Assembly (NCBI GenBank): GCA_027459625.1
Contig: DAIDHP010000017.1
Location: 1-64,000, forward strand
DNA: 64,000 nt
DNA from: Chthonomonadales bacterium
GTDB lineage: Bacteria; Armatimonadota; Chthonomonadetes; Chthonomonadales; CAJBBX01
Direction of reading: 5' to 3'
The translations under genes and the position numbers were made by a program. The notes below the pieces were generated by a model that did no database searches, had not been told where the DNA came from, and worked only from the letters and a program-made list of their open reading frames with translations. This document shows, one piece after another, positions 6,961-47,432 of the stretch (position 1 is its first letter; the number at the start of each line of letters is the position of its first letter).

Positions 6961-8537
6961 GTCGAAAGATACTTTTTGTAGCGGCGCTGCTAGTCCTTTG
7001 GGCTGCAGCGCTGCTGTTTCGTGTGGTCTCCATAAATAACCGGCCCGTGCACGCCGACGAATCCGTGCATGCGTTGAAATTCAGTCAGCTTTGGCTTAAA
7101 GGCGTTTACAAATACGATCCCAATCAGTTTCATGGTCCCACCATTTACTACGCCGCCCTCCCGATTGTATGGGCTGAGGGTCGGATCAATTTCGCCGACA
7201 CCCATATATCGGATTTCCGCCTCTCCATCGCTCTCTTCGGGGCGGGGATGATTCTGTTGCTCTTTTTCCTTTCCGATGCATTGGGAAAGCCCGCAACTTT
7301 GCTGACCGGCTTATTGCTTGCCATTTCGCCCGCGTTTGTCTTTTACAGCAGGTATTACATTCAGGAAATCGTGCTGGTCTTTTTCACTCTGGCTCTCTTG
7401 GCGTGCATATGGCGTTTTGTCGCTTCGCGCAAGCCCGTTTGGTTTTTGTGGGGGGGATTTTGTGTCGGCATGATGGCGGCGACAAAGGAGACGGTTGTTA
7501 TCAATCTCTTCGCGTTAGCCGTCGCAATATGCACGTTGTATCTGCACTCTCGATATGTCGAAAAAAAGCCTATCGATTGGCGCTCGGGAATAAAGTTATC
7601 TTATCTCATCGGGGCGGTTATCATCGCATTCTTCGTGATGGCGTTTTTCATCACGGGCAATTTCCGAAATCCCGTGGGATTTTGGGATTACTTTCTCGCC
7701 TATATTCCGTGGGTGCATAGGGCCCACGCTTCAGCGCTGCATCTGCATCCTTGGGGCTATTACCTTCATATCCTCGTTTGGTGGCATAATGGAAAGGGAC
7801 CCGTATGGACCGAGTTGCTGACGATCATACTCTCTCTGATTGGTCTGATTATCGCCTTCATCCCTCAATGGAGTGATCGGCTTGATATTCATCCTCGTTT
7901 CATTCGATTTGTGGGTCTCTACACGGTCATATTAACACTTGTCTATTCAACCATACCTTATAAGACTCCATGGTGCCTTCTGAATTTTTTGCTTGGGATG
8001 ATCATTATGGCGGGATATGGCGGCGTTGCGATGGTTCGACTTCTTCCCGGCGCCCCCTTGAAAGTCATTGCGACTCTGCTGATTTTTGGAGGATCGTTGC
8101 AACTTGCAATGCAGTCCTACGCCACCAGTTTTAAATATGAAGCCGACACACGCAACCCATATGTTTACGCGCAAACCGATCCCGATTTCCTGAGGTTTGT
8201 GAAACGGTTCCGCGCGATAACCGCAGCCTATCCGTACGGAAATCAGACCTTGGTGAAGGTTATATGGAAGGATAACTACTACTGGCCTATCCCATGGTAT
8301 TTGCGAGCCTATAAGAACGTGGGCTACTGGGGAGGCGTCATTCCGCCCGATCCTTCCGCGCCCATTGTTATCTCCTCGTATGATCTGGATGATGTCATGA
8401 CGGCGAAGATAAGCAACACCCATCTCATGACCGGACTGTACGCCATACGTCCCGGTGTCTATTTGGAGTTGTGGGTAAGGATGGATGTGTGGAAGGACTA
8501 TCTGAAAACCTTAAAACCCGGGGATGATGGGAATTGA
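6957..8537 (+). CDS. GT39-like membrane glycosyltransferase (TIGR03663/Agl23-like)
   Basis: Multiple TM segments; NNRPVHADESVHALKFSQLWLKGVYKYDPNQFHGPTIYY; overlaps upstream stop by ATGA. Confidence 0.75.
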   Translation: MSRKILFVAALLVLWAAALLFRVVSINNRPVHADESVHALKFSQLWLKGVYKYDPNQFHGPTIYYAALPIVWAEGRINFADTHISDFRLSIALFGAGMILLLFFLSDALGKPATLLTGLLLAISPAFVFYSRYYIQEIVLVFFTLALLACIWRFVASRKPVWFLWGGFCVGMMAATKETVVINLFALAVAICTLYLHSRYVEKKPIDWRSGIKLSYLIGAVIIAFFVMAFFITGNFRNPVGFWDYFLAYIPWVHRAHASALHLHPWGYYLHILVWWHNGKGPVWTELLTIILSLIGLIIAFIPQWSDRLDIHPRFIRFVGLYTVILTLVYSTIPYKTPWCLLNFLLGMIIMAGYGGVAMVRLLPGAPLKVIATLLIFGGSLQLAMQSYATSFKYEADTRNPYVYAQTDPDFLRFVKRFRAITAAYPYGNQTLVKVIWKDNYYWPIPWYLRAYKNVGYWGGVIPPDPSAPIVISSYDLDDVMTAKISNTHLMTGLYAIRPGVYLELWVRMDVWKDYLKTLKPGDDGN

Positions 8538-43239: not shown

Positions 43240-44034
43240 TCAGGAAATAGGCAGCGTATCTCCGATTTCCCGCTTTATGTCATCAGCCGTGAGCAATCGA
43301 AACTTACTCTCCCGATTTGTATGTCTATCCAATAACCCTATTTCCAATTGCATGGTTTTCAGCGCGGTGTCAAGAAATACGTTTTCCTCAGATTCATGGA
43401 CTTCGGTGGAAACTTGCTTCTCGTCCGCAACAAGTGATTTACGCTTGGAGGAACTCTCCAACGCCCCAGCGGCCCAAGTGGTTAATGCGGTTCTAATGGC
43501 ATGGTTCAATGTGCATTCGGTTGAATAATCGGAAAGGGTTTCCAGCATTTTATCTTCAGCCTCCCATGTTCCCGCAACAACGGCGTAGCCGGAGCGCTGA
43601 GAAAACTCCCCGTCGTAATTCAATATAAGAAAGAGATCGCGATTCGGAGTTTCCCCCATCTCGCCGAAAATGGCGCGGATCACTGCCGGTGCGTTCAACG
43701 TATCGCCAAACAGTTTTTTCAAAGGCGGACTGAGAGAGAAACCCACGAGTCTATGGGCGGTGATATCGTCCGGGCTGCGTTCGTATCCCTCACGATGCGC
43801 CACGTCAATGGCGCCAATTCTTATGGATTCAATATCCGATTGATTCCCAATGGCTGAGTAGATAAGACGATCATATATTTCAAATATTTTACGTTGAGAT
43901 TTTCGAAGTGTGAGCAAAAGAAGACCATCGTTAAAGCTCAGACCCACCACCGGGCTGCCTTCGTTGAGTTTATCTTCCACGTAATCTTTTCTATGACTGA
44001 CCGCTTCGTTAAAATCAAACGGACTATATACCAT
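43240..44034 (-). CDS. prcA: 20S proteasome alpha subunit
   Basis: Follows the beta gene on the same strand; SPVVGLSFNDGLLLLTLRKSQRKIFEIYDRLIYSAIGNQSDIESIRIGAIDVAHREGYERSPDDITAHRLV matches the bacterial alpha-subunit pattern. Confidence 0.85.
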   Translation of the reverse strand: MVYSPFDFNEAVSHRKDYVEDKLNEGSPVVGLSFNDGLLLLTLRKSQRKIFEIYDRLIYSAIGNQSDIESIRIGAIDVAHREGYERSPDDITAHRLVGFSLSPPLKKLFGDTLNAPAVIRAIFGEMGETPNRDLFLILNYDGEFSQRSGYAVVAGTWEAEDKMLETLSDYSTECTLNHAIRTALTTWAAGALESSSKRKSLVADEKQVSTEVHESEENVFLDTALKTMQLEIGLLDRHTNRESKFRLLTADDIKREIGDTLPIS

Positions 44035-44072
44035 ACTTGCACCTAATGAAAGCTAAGAATGTGATGCGAGAT

Positions 44073-44867
44073 TTACGCATCAAGGGAGTTGATATCTTGT
44101 GTGATGTTTCGGAGGATTTCCTCTGGAATATCGGCAATGCCATCCGCATCGATTTTTTTCGCCAAGGGCAATCTTTTCGCCCATCCACCAGTGGCGGCGT
44201 CCAAGTCCGCGGCGATATCCAGCATAATCAGCGCCTCGCGCAGCGCCTCCTCCAAACTCATCTCATGAAACGGCTTTTTTGTCTTCACTATATAATCGAA
44301 AACACCTCGTATTTGAACCGACCCGCTTCCAGCCGCACCGAATTCCGTGCTTTCGAACCTTGCGCCCATACCGTCGTAAAAGAATATCCTGCCGGTATGC
44401 ATAGCCACGTCATATGAACTCAGAATAGGGATGAACCCCCCGATTCCCTGAAGCGCGGAGGGCAATCCTGCTGCAATAACCCGGGAGAGTTCCGAGAGTT
44501 TGCCTTCAAGGCTCATGGGTTGCAATTGAGAGCGCTCGAAGTATTTAAAGGAGTGACGAAGGTATTTCACCACATCCATCGCTCGCCCGTATGATCCGGA
44601 TATCGCAAGGAGGGTGTAATCATCTATTGGGAGCGATTTTTCCGCCCTGTCGTACATGACAGCGAAATTGGCGGTAGCCCGTCGATCGCCCACGTTTATC
44701 ACCCCTTCGCGGTACTTAACTGCAATTACAGTGGTGCCGTGAATGTCGGTAATGGGGGATGCTCCCGAGGGAATTGCGTATTCCTTGCCTAGCCATTCAG
44801 GGGGAGTGATAACAACTTCGCTTAACGGGCGTATCATCTCCAACAGGTTCGAATTGCCCATTATCAC
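44073..44867 (-). CDS. prcB: 20S proteasome beta subunit
   Basis: Propeptide then HG|TTVIAVKYREGVINVGDRRAT (Thr1, Asp17), EKSLPIDDYTLLAISGSYGRA (Lys33), GAAGSGSVQ. Confidence 0.93.
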   Translation of the reverse strand: MIMGNSNLLEMIRPLSEVVITPPEWLGKEYAIPSGASPITDIHGTTVIAVKYREGVINVGDRRATANFAVMYDRAEKSLPIDDYTLLAISGSYGRAMDVVKYLRHSFKYFERSQLQPMSLEGKLSELSRVIAAGLPSALQGIGGFIPILSSYDVAMHTGRIFFYDGMGARFESTEFGAAGSGSVQIRGVFDYIVKTKKPFHEMSLEEALREALIMLDIAADLDAATGGWAKRLPLAKKIDADGIADIPEEILRNITQDINSLDA

Positions 44868-45049
44868 TCCCCACTTCTTTGGCGATATCTTCGAGCGGTG
44901 TCCGGATCAATACGCTTCATACGTTTCAACAGGTCACCAACATCCGGACGCTTGACGTCTGGCTTGGTTGGACCGCCGTCGTCCCCTTCCTTCCTCATCG
45001 GTTCGGCGGGCATGGGGCGACGCACTCTCTCTTCAAATTGAAATTCCAT
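44864..45049 (-). CDS. UBact-type (Pup-like) protein modifier
   Basis: 61 aa MEFQFEERVRRPMPAEPMRKEGDDGGPTKPDVKRPDVGDLLKRMKRIDPDTARRYRQRSGE; C-terminal RRYRQRSGE; stop overlaps the GTG start of the proteasome beta ORF. Confidence 0.88.
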   Translation of the reverse strand: MEFQFEERVRRPMPAEPMRKEGDDGGPTKPDVKRPDVGDLLKRMKRIDPDTARRYRQRSGE

Positions 45050-45055
45050 TTTATT

Positions 45056-45091
45056 CCCTCCTTCCTCTCTATAGTATACGAGGAAGGAGGG
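45056..45091 (-). promoter_or_regulatory. 12-bp perfect hairpin occluding the UBact Shine-Dalgarno
   Basis: Minus strand CCCTCCTTCCTC-gtatactataga-GAGGAAGGAGGG-AATAAA-ATG; AGGAGG lies in the 3' arm; no U-tract follows. Confidence 0.7.
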
Positions 45092-45118
45092 ATTCTGATT
45101 TCCTTAGAGTGAAAATCC

Positions 45119-46246
45119 TTAGGCTTTTAACTTTTTCATTTCGGATTTTAACTTGGAGATGCTGTCTATGTTGGTGGGATCTATGTCGTTAAGAAATGCC
45201 GCGTAGATGCTCACATAGTCGCCGAGGTAGAATAGGCTGAACATTTTCGCCAAAAGCGAGTCTCCCTTCGCCCACGCCTCGTACGATGGGGTGTGTCCCG
45301 CAAGCTTTTTCATTACTTCCACGCGTCGTGCAATCCTCGGCTGGGTGGCGGTTTCCGAAGGGTCGCGGAGGTAGATCAGTATCCATCTGGGAGCCTGTTT
45401 GCGACATTTCTTCCAAGCCAGAATTTCATTGTGATTCTGTTCGGGAAATACATTTGCAAAGGCATGTTCCTTGGCGTTTTCGTTAAACTGGCACTTCCAA
45501 CGAACAGCCACCACACCTCTATATCCCTGACTGCCGTATATCACGGGTATGCGTCCGTCAAGCTGAATCGCCAACTGTTTCGCAGTATTGTTTTCAATCG
45601 GAACATCCGTGGAGTACTCCTTGTTCAGATCGGCGAGCAATTGCATGGTTTCTTCAATGTCCTTGCTGATGGGGCGGGAAAACAACCCGAGGTGAGACAG
45701 CAATGAAAGCATGGGGAAGAACATATATCCCGTAGCAGTACGAGGGGGTTGTCCGCCGGGAATGGTACAGACCGGAAACCCATCCCTGTTCGCTCGTTCC
45801 GCCAACTCCCCTCCGCTGGTCACGCAGACGATTTGGGCGTTGCGTGCGCGCGCCTGGTTGTAGGCTGAGAGCGTCTCTTCCGTGCCCCCTGAATAGGAAG
45901 CGCAAATTACCAGGGTGTCCTTGCCTGCGAACCCAGGAAGAGTGTAGTCACGATTGACAATCATCGGGATGTCGCCATATTCCTCCATCAAGATTCGAAG
46001 CATATCCCCGCCAATCGCCGAACCTCCCAAGCCGGAGAGCACGATGTTGTTGATGGGGCGTTTTCTCGAAAGTCCTTGGATGGCGAATTTTTCACCGATC
46101 TCATAAGCTGTGCGGCATTGTATGGGGAAATCAGCGGTAAGTTGAAGGATATTGGACGGGTCTAGTTGACGCATTGCGGCAATATCATCCAAAACCGATT
46201 TTGATTGCAGCATCATAAATCTCCTTTTAGGATGTTGGATTCGCAA
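45119..46246 (-). CDS. bifunctional phosphoglucose/phosphomannose isomerase
   Basis: NNIVLSGLGGSAIGGDML; VICASYSGGTEETLSAY; QNHNEILAW. Confidence 0.88.
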   Translation of the reverse strand: MRIQHPKRRFMMLQSKSVLDDIAAMRQLDPSNILQLTADFPIQCRTAYEIGEKFAIQGLSRKRPINNIVLSGLGGSAIGGDMLRILMEEYGDIPMIVNRDYTLPGFAGKDTLVICASYSGGTEETLSAYNQARARNAQIVCVTSGGELAERANRDGFPVCTIPGGQPPRTATGYMFFPMLSLLSHLGLFSRPISKDIEETMQLLADLNKEYSTDVPIENNTAKQLAIQLDGRIPVIYGSQGYRGVVAVRWKCQFNENAKEHAFANVFPEQNHNEILAWKKCRKQAPRWILIYLRDPSETATQPRIARRVEVMKKLAGHTPSYEAWAKGDSLLAKMFSLFYLGDYVSIYAAFLNDIDPTNIDSISKLKSEMKKLKA

Positions 46247-46315: not shown

Positions 46316-46567
46316 TTATTTAGCCACGAAATTCAAAAATGCAATGTGGCGCGCACGTTTGATCGCTTCGCTCAACAGACGTTGATGTTTTGCGCATGTT
46401 CCCGATGAGCGTCTCGGATACATTTTGCCCCGTTCGCTCACGAATTTACGAAGCTTTGCATATGACTTGTAATCTATGCTCGTGACTTTATCCACGCAAA
46501 ACTCACAAACCTTTCGGCGCGGTTTGCGAAATTTGTTTGGAGCGCGTTTGCGCACGACGTTATTCAT
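46316..46567 (-). CDS. rpsR: 30S ribosomal protein S18 (Cys-containing form)
   Basis: [62 protein letters not shown]. Confidence 0.97.
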
Positions 46568-46631
46568 CTATACCCTTTCTCATAGGGCCCCCATAGGGAA
46601 GACCCCTTAAAATTGACAAGTTGGAAAAGGA

Positions 46632-47069
46632 CTATTCCTCTGCGAAGGGATCATAATCCTCGGGTTCCGAAGTTTTAGAAGATTGCGGAATGTTTTCCCG
46701 GACAGGGGCGACGTGGTCCATTTCAGCAGCATCCGTTCCCTGGGATTTCGGTCGATCCAATCCTTGAACGTTATCGGCTATGATTTCCGAGGTTTTACGC
46801 TTGGAACCGTCTTGCGCGTCCCATGTGCGAACTTGCAAACGCCCTTCCACGAGAATCAACCGTCCTTTGGTGATGTAACTGTTTATGAATTCCGCAGTTT
46901 GTCTCCATGCCACCACATCAAGGAAATCCGTCTCCCGCTCGCCCGTATCCTGATTTTTTCGCGGGCGATCAACCGCAACCGAAAAACGGACAAAGGGGAT
47001 TCCACTTGAGGTGTATTTTATTTCCGGGTCACGGGTAATTCTCCCGATGATAATAATGTGGTTTAACAT
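46632..47069 (-). CDS. ssb: single-stranded DNA-binding protein
   Basis: MLNHIIIIGRITRDPEIKYTSSGIPFVRFSVAVDRP; acidic tail DYDPFAEE. Confidence 0.95.
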   Translation of the reverse strand: MLNHIIIIGRITRDPEIKYTSSGIPFVRFSVAVDRPRKNQDTGERETDFLDVVAWRQTAEFINSYITKGRLILVEGRLQVRTWDAQDGSKRKTSEIIADNVQGLDRPKSQGTDAAEMDHVAPVRENIPQSSKTSEPEDYDPFAEE

Positions 47070-47129
47070 TTCTCCGCTCCTTCGTCTTCTTGGACATTCA
47101 TGGATGGGTGTGTCAGTAATCAGAGGGTG

Positions 47130-47432
47130 TTACTCTTCGTCTTCGTTTTGGCGCACGATAATATGTCTGAAGACATCGTCGCTGATTCGAAATACGCGAT
47201 CAAGCTCCTTGGGTACGTTGGTGTCTGCAACGAAATTCATCAGGATGTAAATGCCTTCACGATGACCGTCAATTTCGTAAGCAAGTCGCTTTTTGCCCAT
47301 TTCCCATTTACCGGCATCCGTTACGGAGCCGTTCATGTCAGTAACGATCTTGGAATACTTGTCAATGATGGGCTGGAGTTGTTCGTCCGTTAGTTCCGAA
47401 TCCACAATGTACATCGCCTCGTAGTGGCGCAT
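47130..47432 (-). CDS. rpsF: 30S ribosomal protein S6
   Basis: MRHYEAMYIVDSELTDEQ; GKWEMGKKRLAYEIDGHREGIYILMNF. Confidence 0.96.
   Translation of the reverse strand: MRHYEAMYIVDSELTDEQLQPIIDKYSKIVTDMNGSVTDAGKWEMGKKRLAYEIDGHREGIYILMNFVADTNVPKELDRVFRISDDVFRHIIVRQNEDEE

Follow-up and report, generated by a model that had tools for sequence, protein, structure and literature searches.

UBact, a Pup-like protein tag, was reportedly described by Lehmann et al. in 2017 and has been reported from Armatimonadetes among other phyla; to our knowledge its conjugation has so far been argued mainly from genomics. For proteasomes, the pairing of the alpha-pocket lysine with the carboxylate of an activator is established. 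In mycobacteria the C-terminal GQYL of Mpa opens the gate of the Mycobacterium tuberculosis (Mtb) 20S core (PMC8142254, PMC8755798), and gate opening needs this GQYL/HbYX ATPase tail (PMC8142254). Here we describe a UBact gene and its 20S partners in a window of 64,000 nucleotides, the whole stretch of DNA analysed, from a Chthonomonadales assembly (G000; 4.55 Mb, 96.6% complete), and argue that this genome very probably encodes a complete UBact-proteasome system, the Gram-negative version of pupylation.

Results

The ORF of 61 residues was recovered with the same coordinates and translation as in an earlier note on this DNA, which had proposed it to be UBact from its sequence; profile searches bear this out. 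It scores 78.5 bits (E = 3e-22; cut-off 27.8) against the Pfam UBact model PF20513 and 78.0 bits (cut-off 35) against the NCBIfam model NF033388, and its C-terminus, RRYRQRSGE, fits the R-x-x-R-Q-R-x-G-(E/Q) pattern. The ORF is UBact, a family already known, for which Pfam and NCBIfam each provide a model, and the tag is probably mostly disordered. The pattern P-G-P...RM..DP..A..YRQRSG is invariant across 17 aligned relatives; a rarer form of YRQRSG, with T replacing S, occurs in some of 80 UBact loci. In the sister genome (G001) the ORF is 97% identical to that of the window and nine of the 11 changed codons are synonymous; the gene is under purifying selection. The terminal residue is Glu in 41 and Gln in 39 of the 80 named loci. 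Pup ending in Glu requires no deamidation (PMC12288473), and the remark in the earlier note that a tag ending in Glu could be ligated directly is reasonable in the light of this Pup biology.

Table 1. Features of the UBact locus, its unlinked partners and a second group of Pup-like tags.
Feature	Location	Strand	Characteristics
20S proteasome alpha	43240..44034	-	264 aa, divergent; H0-type N-terminal helix; pocket Lys49
20S proteasome beta	44073..44861	-	262 aa from ATG 44861; TIGR03690, PF00227, PrcB alignment
UBact	44864..45049 (stop included)	-	61 aa; end ARRYRQRSGE; PF20513 and NF033388
UBact leader hairpin	45055..45092	-	perfect stem of 12-13 bp closing a 12-nt loop; ribosome-binding site AGGAAGGAGGG as its 3' arm
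SIS protein, bacterial phosphoglucose/phosphomannose isomerase-type	45119..46246	-	PF10432 170 bits, PF01380
Dop-type (L001)	C64:15161-16513		TIGR03688 473 bits vs TIGR03686 (PafA) 348; Dop loop kept
Mpa/ARC-type ATPase (L003)	C64:16673-18154		just upstream of Dop; TIGR03689 425 bits
PafA-type ligase (L002)	C16:7287-8663		end-to-end alignment with the PafA model only; Dop loop missing
Second Pup-like tag ORF	L086:9174-9368	-	
Second Pup-like tag ORF	L087:2898-3185	-	
Second Pup-like tag ORF	L088:7646-7909	+	
Second Pup-like tag ORF	L188: about 7699-7899	+	

Behind UBact the beta and then the alpha gene follow on the same strand; both are genuine 20S genes, and the 20S context first proposed for the tag holds. 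The beta subunit matches TIGR03690 (E = 1e-41, under the equivalog cut-off) and PF00227 as well. Alignment to PDB chains of Rhodococcus and Mtb PrcB confirmed the intact Thr1, Asp17 and Lys33 that had been claimed for it, with the processing site HG/TTVIAVKYREGVINVGD...AEK (HG/TT) and Thr1 at residue 43 of the ATG-start protein. The overlap of UBact with beta, also claimed, requires a beta start at GTG 44867; the likelier start is ATG 44861, with GGGGAG in front of it, and this leaves a 2-base gap. The two genes look translationally coupled whichever start holds. The alpha subunit matches TIGR03691 (E = 8e-22), stays under the cut-off of the Pfam proteasome model, and has Mtb PrcA as its best match among sequences of solved structures (E = 3e-13). 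Misidentification, a concern given the low profile score, was ruled out by modelling and a structural comparison: the AlphaFold model, made from an alignment of 32 relatives, reached a pLDDT of 91.6 and a pTM of 0.89, and its best PDB matches are all Mtb 20S chains, so alpha is predicted to have the 20S fold.

The leader hairpin of UBact (dG -30.9 kcal/mol, z -4.0) holds the whole ribosome-binding site within its stem, is single copy in the genome and is retained in the sister genome with one C-G pair changed to U.G. In the genus of the window UBact, no longer placed behind Dop, is preceded by a leader of its own. A search at the hairpin turned up no intrinsic terminator, and as there is no U-tract the structure does not look like one for the upstream gene; Rfam gave only sub-threshold, meaningless matches there. 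A natural guess is that the hairpin controls translation of UBact and, by coupling, that of beta and alpha. The SIS protein upstream is an ordinary metabolic neighbour, outside the tagging system. The genes rpsF-ssb-rpsR (46316-47432, minus strand) lie upstream of both the isomerase-type gene and UBact.

The earlier note had seen no PafA, Dop or ring ATPase in the window, had supposed them unlinked or absent, and had suggested a genome search for PafA/Dop and Mpa/ARC homologues. All are present in G000, unlinked to the window and not absent; the PafA-type ligase on C16 removes the objection that a genome without any PafA would raise. The assembly holds exactly two genes of the Pup-ligase family. 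In the Dop-type protein about 77 residues separate GLETEYG from LPNGARLY; the protein also keeps the Dop-loop motif (R/K)W(D/N)..-P.RD.RGF. The other protein carries the FLRNGGRLYIDAVGSHEEYATPE motif; its assignment by best score was undone by a tie of the PafA and Dop profiles at 298 bits, and the decision for PafA comes from the coverage of the model and the lack of the Dop loop. The nearest solved structure to the ATPase is Mtb Mpa. Dop, PafA and the ATPase score below the NCBIfam equivalog cut-offs, as do beta and alpha, and these cut-offs are presumed to be largely actinobacterial-based.

UBact is present in 45 of 61 sampled genomes (that of the window included), conservation whose absence would have counted against the original proposal, and all 45 have canonical PafA/Dop (Fisher p = 5e-12). 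Two UBact-negative genomes, G026 and G058, have a canonical PafA and a beta gene at a contig edge; there the UBact gene is probably just unassembled. Extra UBact matches in G004 and G048 were considered as paralogues and rejected, as each sits at the end of a contig and is probably a fragment left by the assembly. A species-level genome collection yielded at least 192 UBact-encoding loci, and the 80 that were kept include Armatimonadota, Latescibacterota and Verrucomicrobiota. In most Chthonomonadales the genes form one cluster of roughly 7-8 kb in the order ATPase-Dop-UBact-beta-alpha-PafA. In the genus of the window (G000, G001) they occupy three places: ATPase-Dop, UBact-beta-alpha and PafA. 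The breakpoints in G000 lie inside contigs, so the split is no assembly effect. Fimbriimonadales (L161, L163, L178 and others) have a Dop-UBact-beta cluster, with alpha and the ATPase elsewhere in the genome. Tandem UBact-like frames were seen at G042:C4:768105-768378 (L078) and L160:7131-7585; the second copy at L160 ends in RRYRQRDGGVN instead of GE/GQ. A Dop-UBact-beta cluster also occurs in a MAG labelled Methanoregulaceae archaeon (L170, JADZEW010000030.1), most likely through contamination or mislabelling and not as an archaeal UBact.

A further PafA/Dop-like family is found in five of 291 Armatimonadota genomes. In four of these genomes, at L086, L087, L088 and L188, an ORF of 60-95 residues lies between two PafA/Dop-like genes and ends in QQGGE, QRGGQ, QQSGE or QDGGQ; the four align, with R46, S49, S52, F55, Q61 and G64 invariant, and one of them matches Pfam Pup weakly (E = 0.05, below the cut-off). 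At L086, L087 and L088 the tag is accompanied by an AAA ATPase of ARC-like type and by a protein of the JAB protease type; L087 and L088 additionally encode a ThiF/E1-like protein and possibly an E2-like one, and L087 has a weak RING-like match. No 20S proteasome genes lie within these clusters, and G035, which carries L086, lacks both UBact and a convincing match to 20S beta. Together these features look like a second Pup-type conjugation system beside ubiquitin-type enzymes, one that is absent from the genome of the window. It gave no match in a Verrucomicrobiota sample, in a search without a positive control, and only weak matches on plasmid records; a literature search, with most subscription journals outside its reach, found no description of the cluster. 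At L089:5455-10124 (G018) three PafA/Dop-like genes stand in a row with no evident tag ORF adjoining.

The ATPase of G000 ends in RSRKTPSTSRSNII (...RSNII), with three residues after the last phmmer-aligned position as against 11 in full-length Mpa chains. Among 53 distinct tails of UBact-linked ATPases, drawn from three or more phyla, with Armatimonadota, Latescibacterota and Verrucomicrobiota among them, the last residue is I in 41, V in nine, M in two and L in one, and the penultimate residue is I in 30 and V in 23; over all the loci covered, the penultimate tyrosine of HbYX/GQYL occurs in none. Lys49 of alpha aligns with the docking-pocket lysine (motif xK[IVL][FY]E[IV]YDR), which is invariant in 32 of 32 alpha subunits and in other proteasomes pairs with the activator's carboxylate (PMC12288473). 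We hypothesize that in UBact-class proteasomes the pocket has been kept and the peptide signal changed. A literature search, from which most subscription journals were out of reach, returned no description of a tyrosine-free tail. Bpa/PafE, a tail-bearing activator, was also looked for without a match, but the controls of that search were equally silent.

Discussion

By homology with pupylation, UBact would be conjugated, recognised and used to direct degradation. By the chemistry known for PafA (PMC2588565), the ligase on C16 would phosphorylate the side-chain carboxylate of the UBact terminal Glu and join the tag to substrate lysines; because the tag ends in Glu, it could do so without prior deamidation. 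Dop, encoded on C64, would mainly remove and recycle the tag, and its retention with both Glu- and Gln-ended tags suggests that this is its constant job. The ATPase, also encoded on C64, would recognise tagged proteins, unfold them and hand them to the 20S core formed from the beta and alpha subunits of the locus. Our hypothesis is that it probably docks on the alpha ring by its conserved aliphatic C-terminus, whose carboxylate would meet the pocket lysine in place of a contact that uses the HbYX/GQYL tyrosine. The chances seem even that ATPase-20S coupling in the UBact class differs from that of other proteasomes, either through a tyrosine-free aliphatic tail, -[IV][IVML]-COOH, reading the invariant-lysine pocket, or through the beta-grasp domain alone.

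As the ATPase has no GQYL/HbYX tail, ATP-driven degradation should not be taken for granted. UBact could instead be a reversible regulatory mark, with a 20S core that works mainly independently of the ATPase and tagging that is not chiefly a degradation signal. We consider this improbable: the missing HbYX/GQYL in 53 of 53 distinct tails would fit it, as would the unlinked parts of the system in the genus of the window and in Fimbriimonadales and the retention of Dop even with a Glu-ended tag, but the ATPase, tag and 20S genes are clustered in most of the order, the alpha pocket lysine is invariant, and Glu-type Pup systems keep Dop too (PMC12288473). Still further from likely is a tag that is Pup proper, acquired from actinobacteria. 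The enzymes and chemistry are indeed common to pupylation, but no Pfam (PF05639) or NCBIfam Pup match appeared at E up to 10 beside the strong UBact match, the tag ends in RQRSGE and not in GGQ/GGE, and all five partner proteins fall short of the cut-offs curated for bacterial Pup-proteasome equivalogs. A chance frame or decayed remnant beside proteasome genes, which the shortness of a 61-residue ORF might suggest, is least credible of all and already refuted by the family scores, the recurrence in 45 of 61 genomes and at least 192 loci, the bias to synonymous changes and the strong ribosome-binding site.

The UBact-proteasome reading gains its wider interest from the tight co-inheritance of UBact with the ligase/depupylase family and the 20S core, and culturable hosts, with Chthonomonas calidirosea among the cultured relatives, suggest themselves for a direct test. 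The tyrosine-free docking tail facing an invariant pocket lysine sets up a concrete contrast with the mycobacterial machine; as the gate-opening rule is central in proteasome biology, a natural system that had kept the pocket and dropped the tyrosine would be a useful test of it. It is this system-wide ATPase tail, directly testable, that lifts the locus above the routine.

Comparison with known systems

The locus resembles the described UBact family in its tag sequence, in the R-x-x-R-Q-R-S-G-E end, in its linkage to the 20S genes and in the presence of PafA, Dop and the ATPase in the genome; it departs from it in the division of the cluster among three places in the genus of the window and in the leader hairpin that covers the SD sequence. 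With mycobacterial Pup, Mpa, PafA, Dop and PrcB/PrcA it shares the enzyme families, the beta active site and the alpha fold, and the isopeptide chemistry is likely the same. The tag sequence differs, with a terminal Glu here and Gln in M. tuberculosis, and the ATPase of the window's genome, ending in ...RSNII, is about 8 residues shorter than Mpa and lacks GQYL. The archaeal and eukaryotic PAN and Rpt proteins share the OB-AAA ring ATPase architecture and a docking partner, the lysine of the alpha pocket, whereas in all UBact-linked ATPases seen the HbYX tail gives way to two aliphatic residues.
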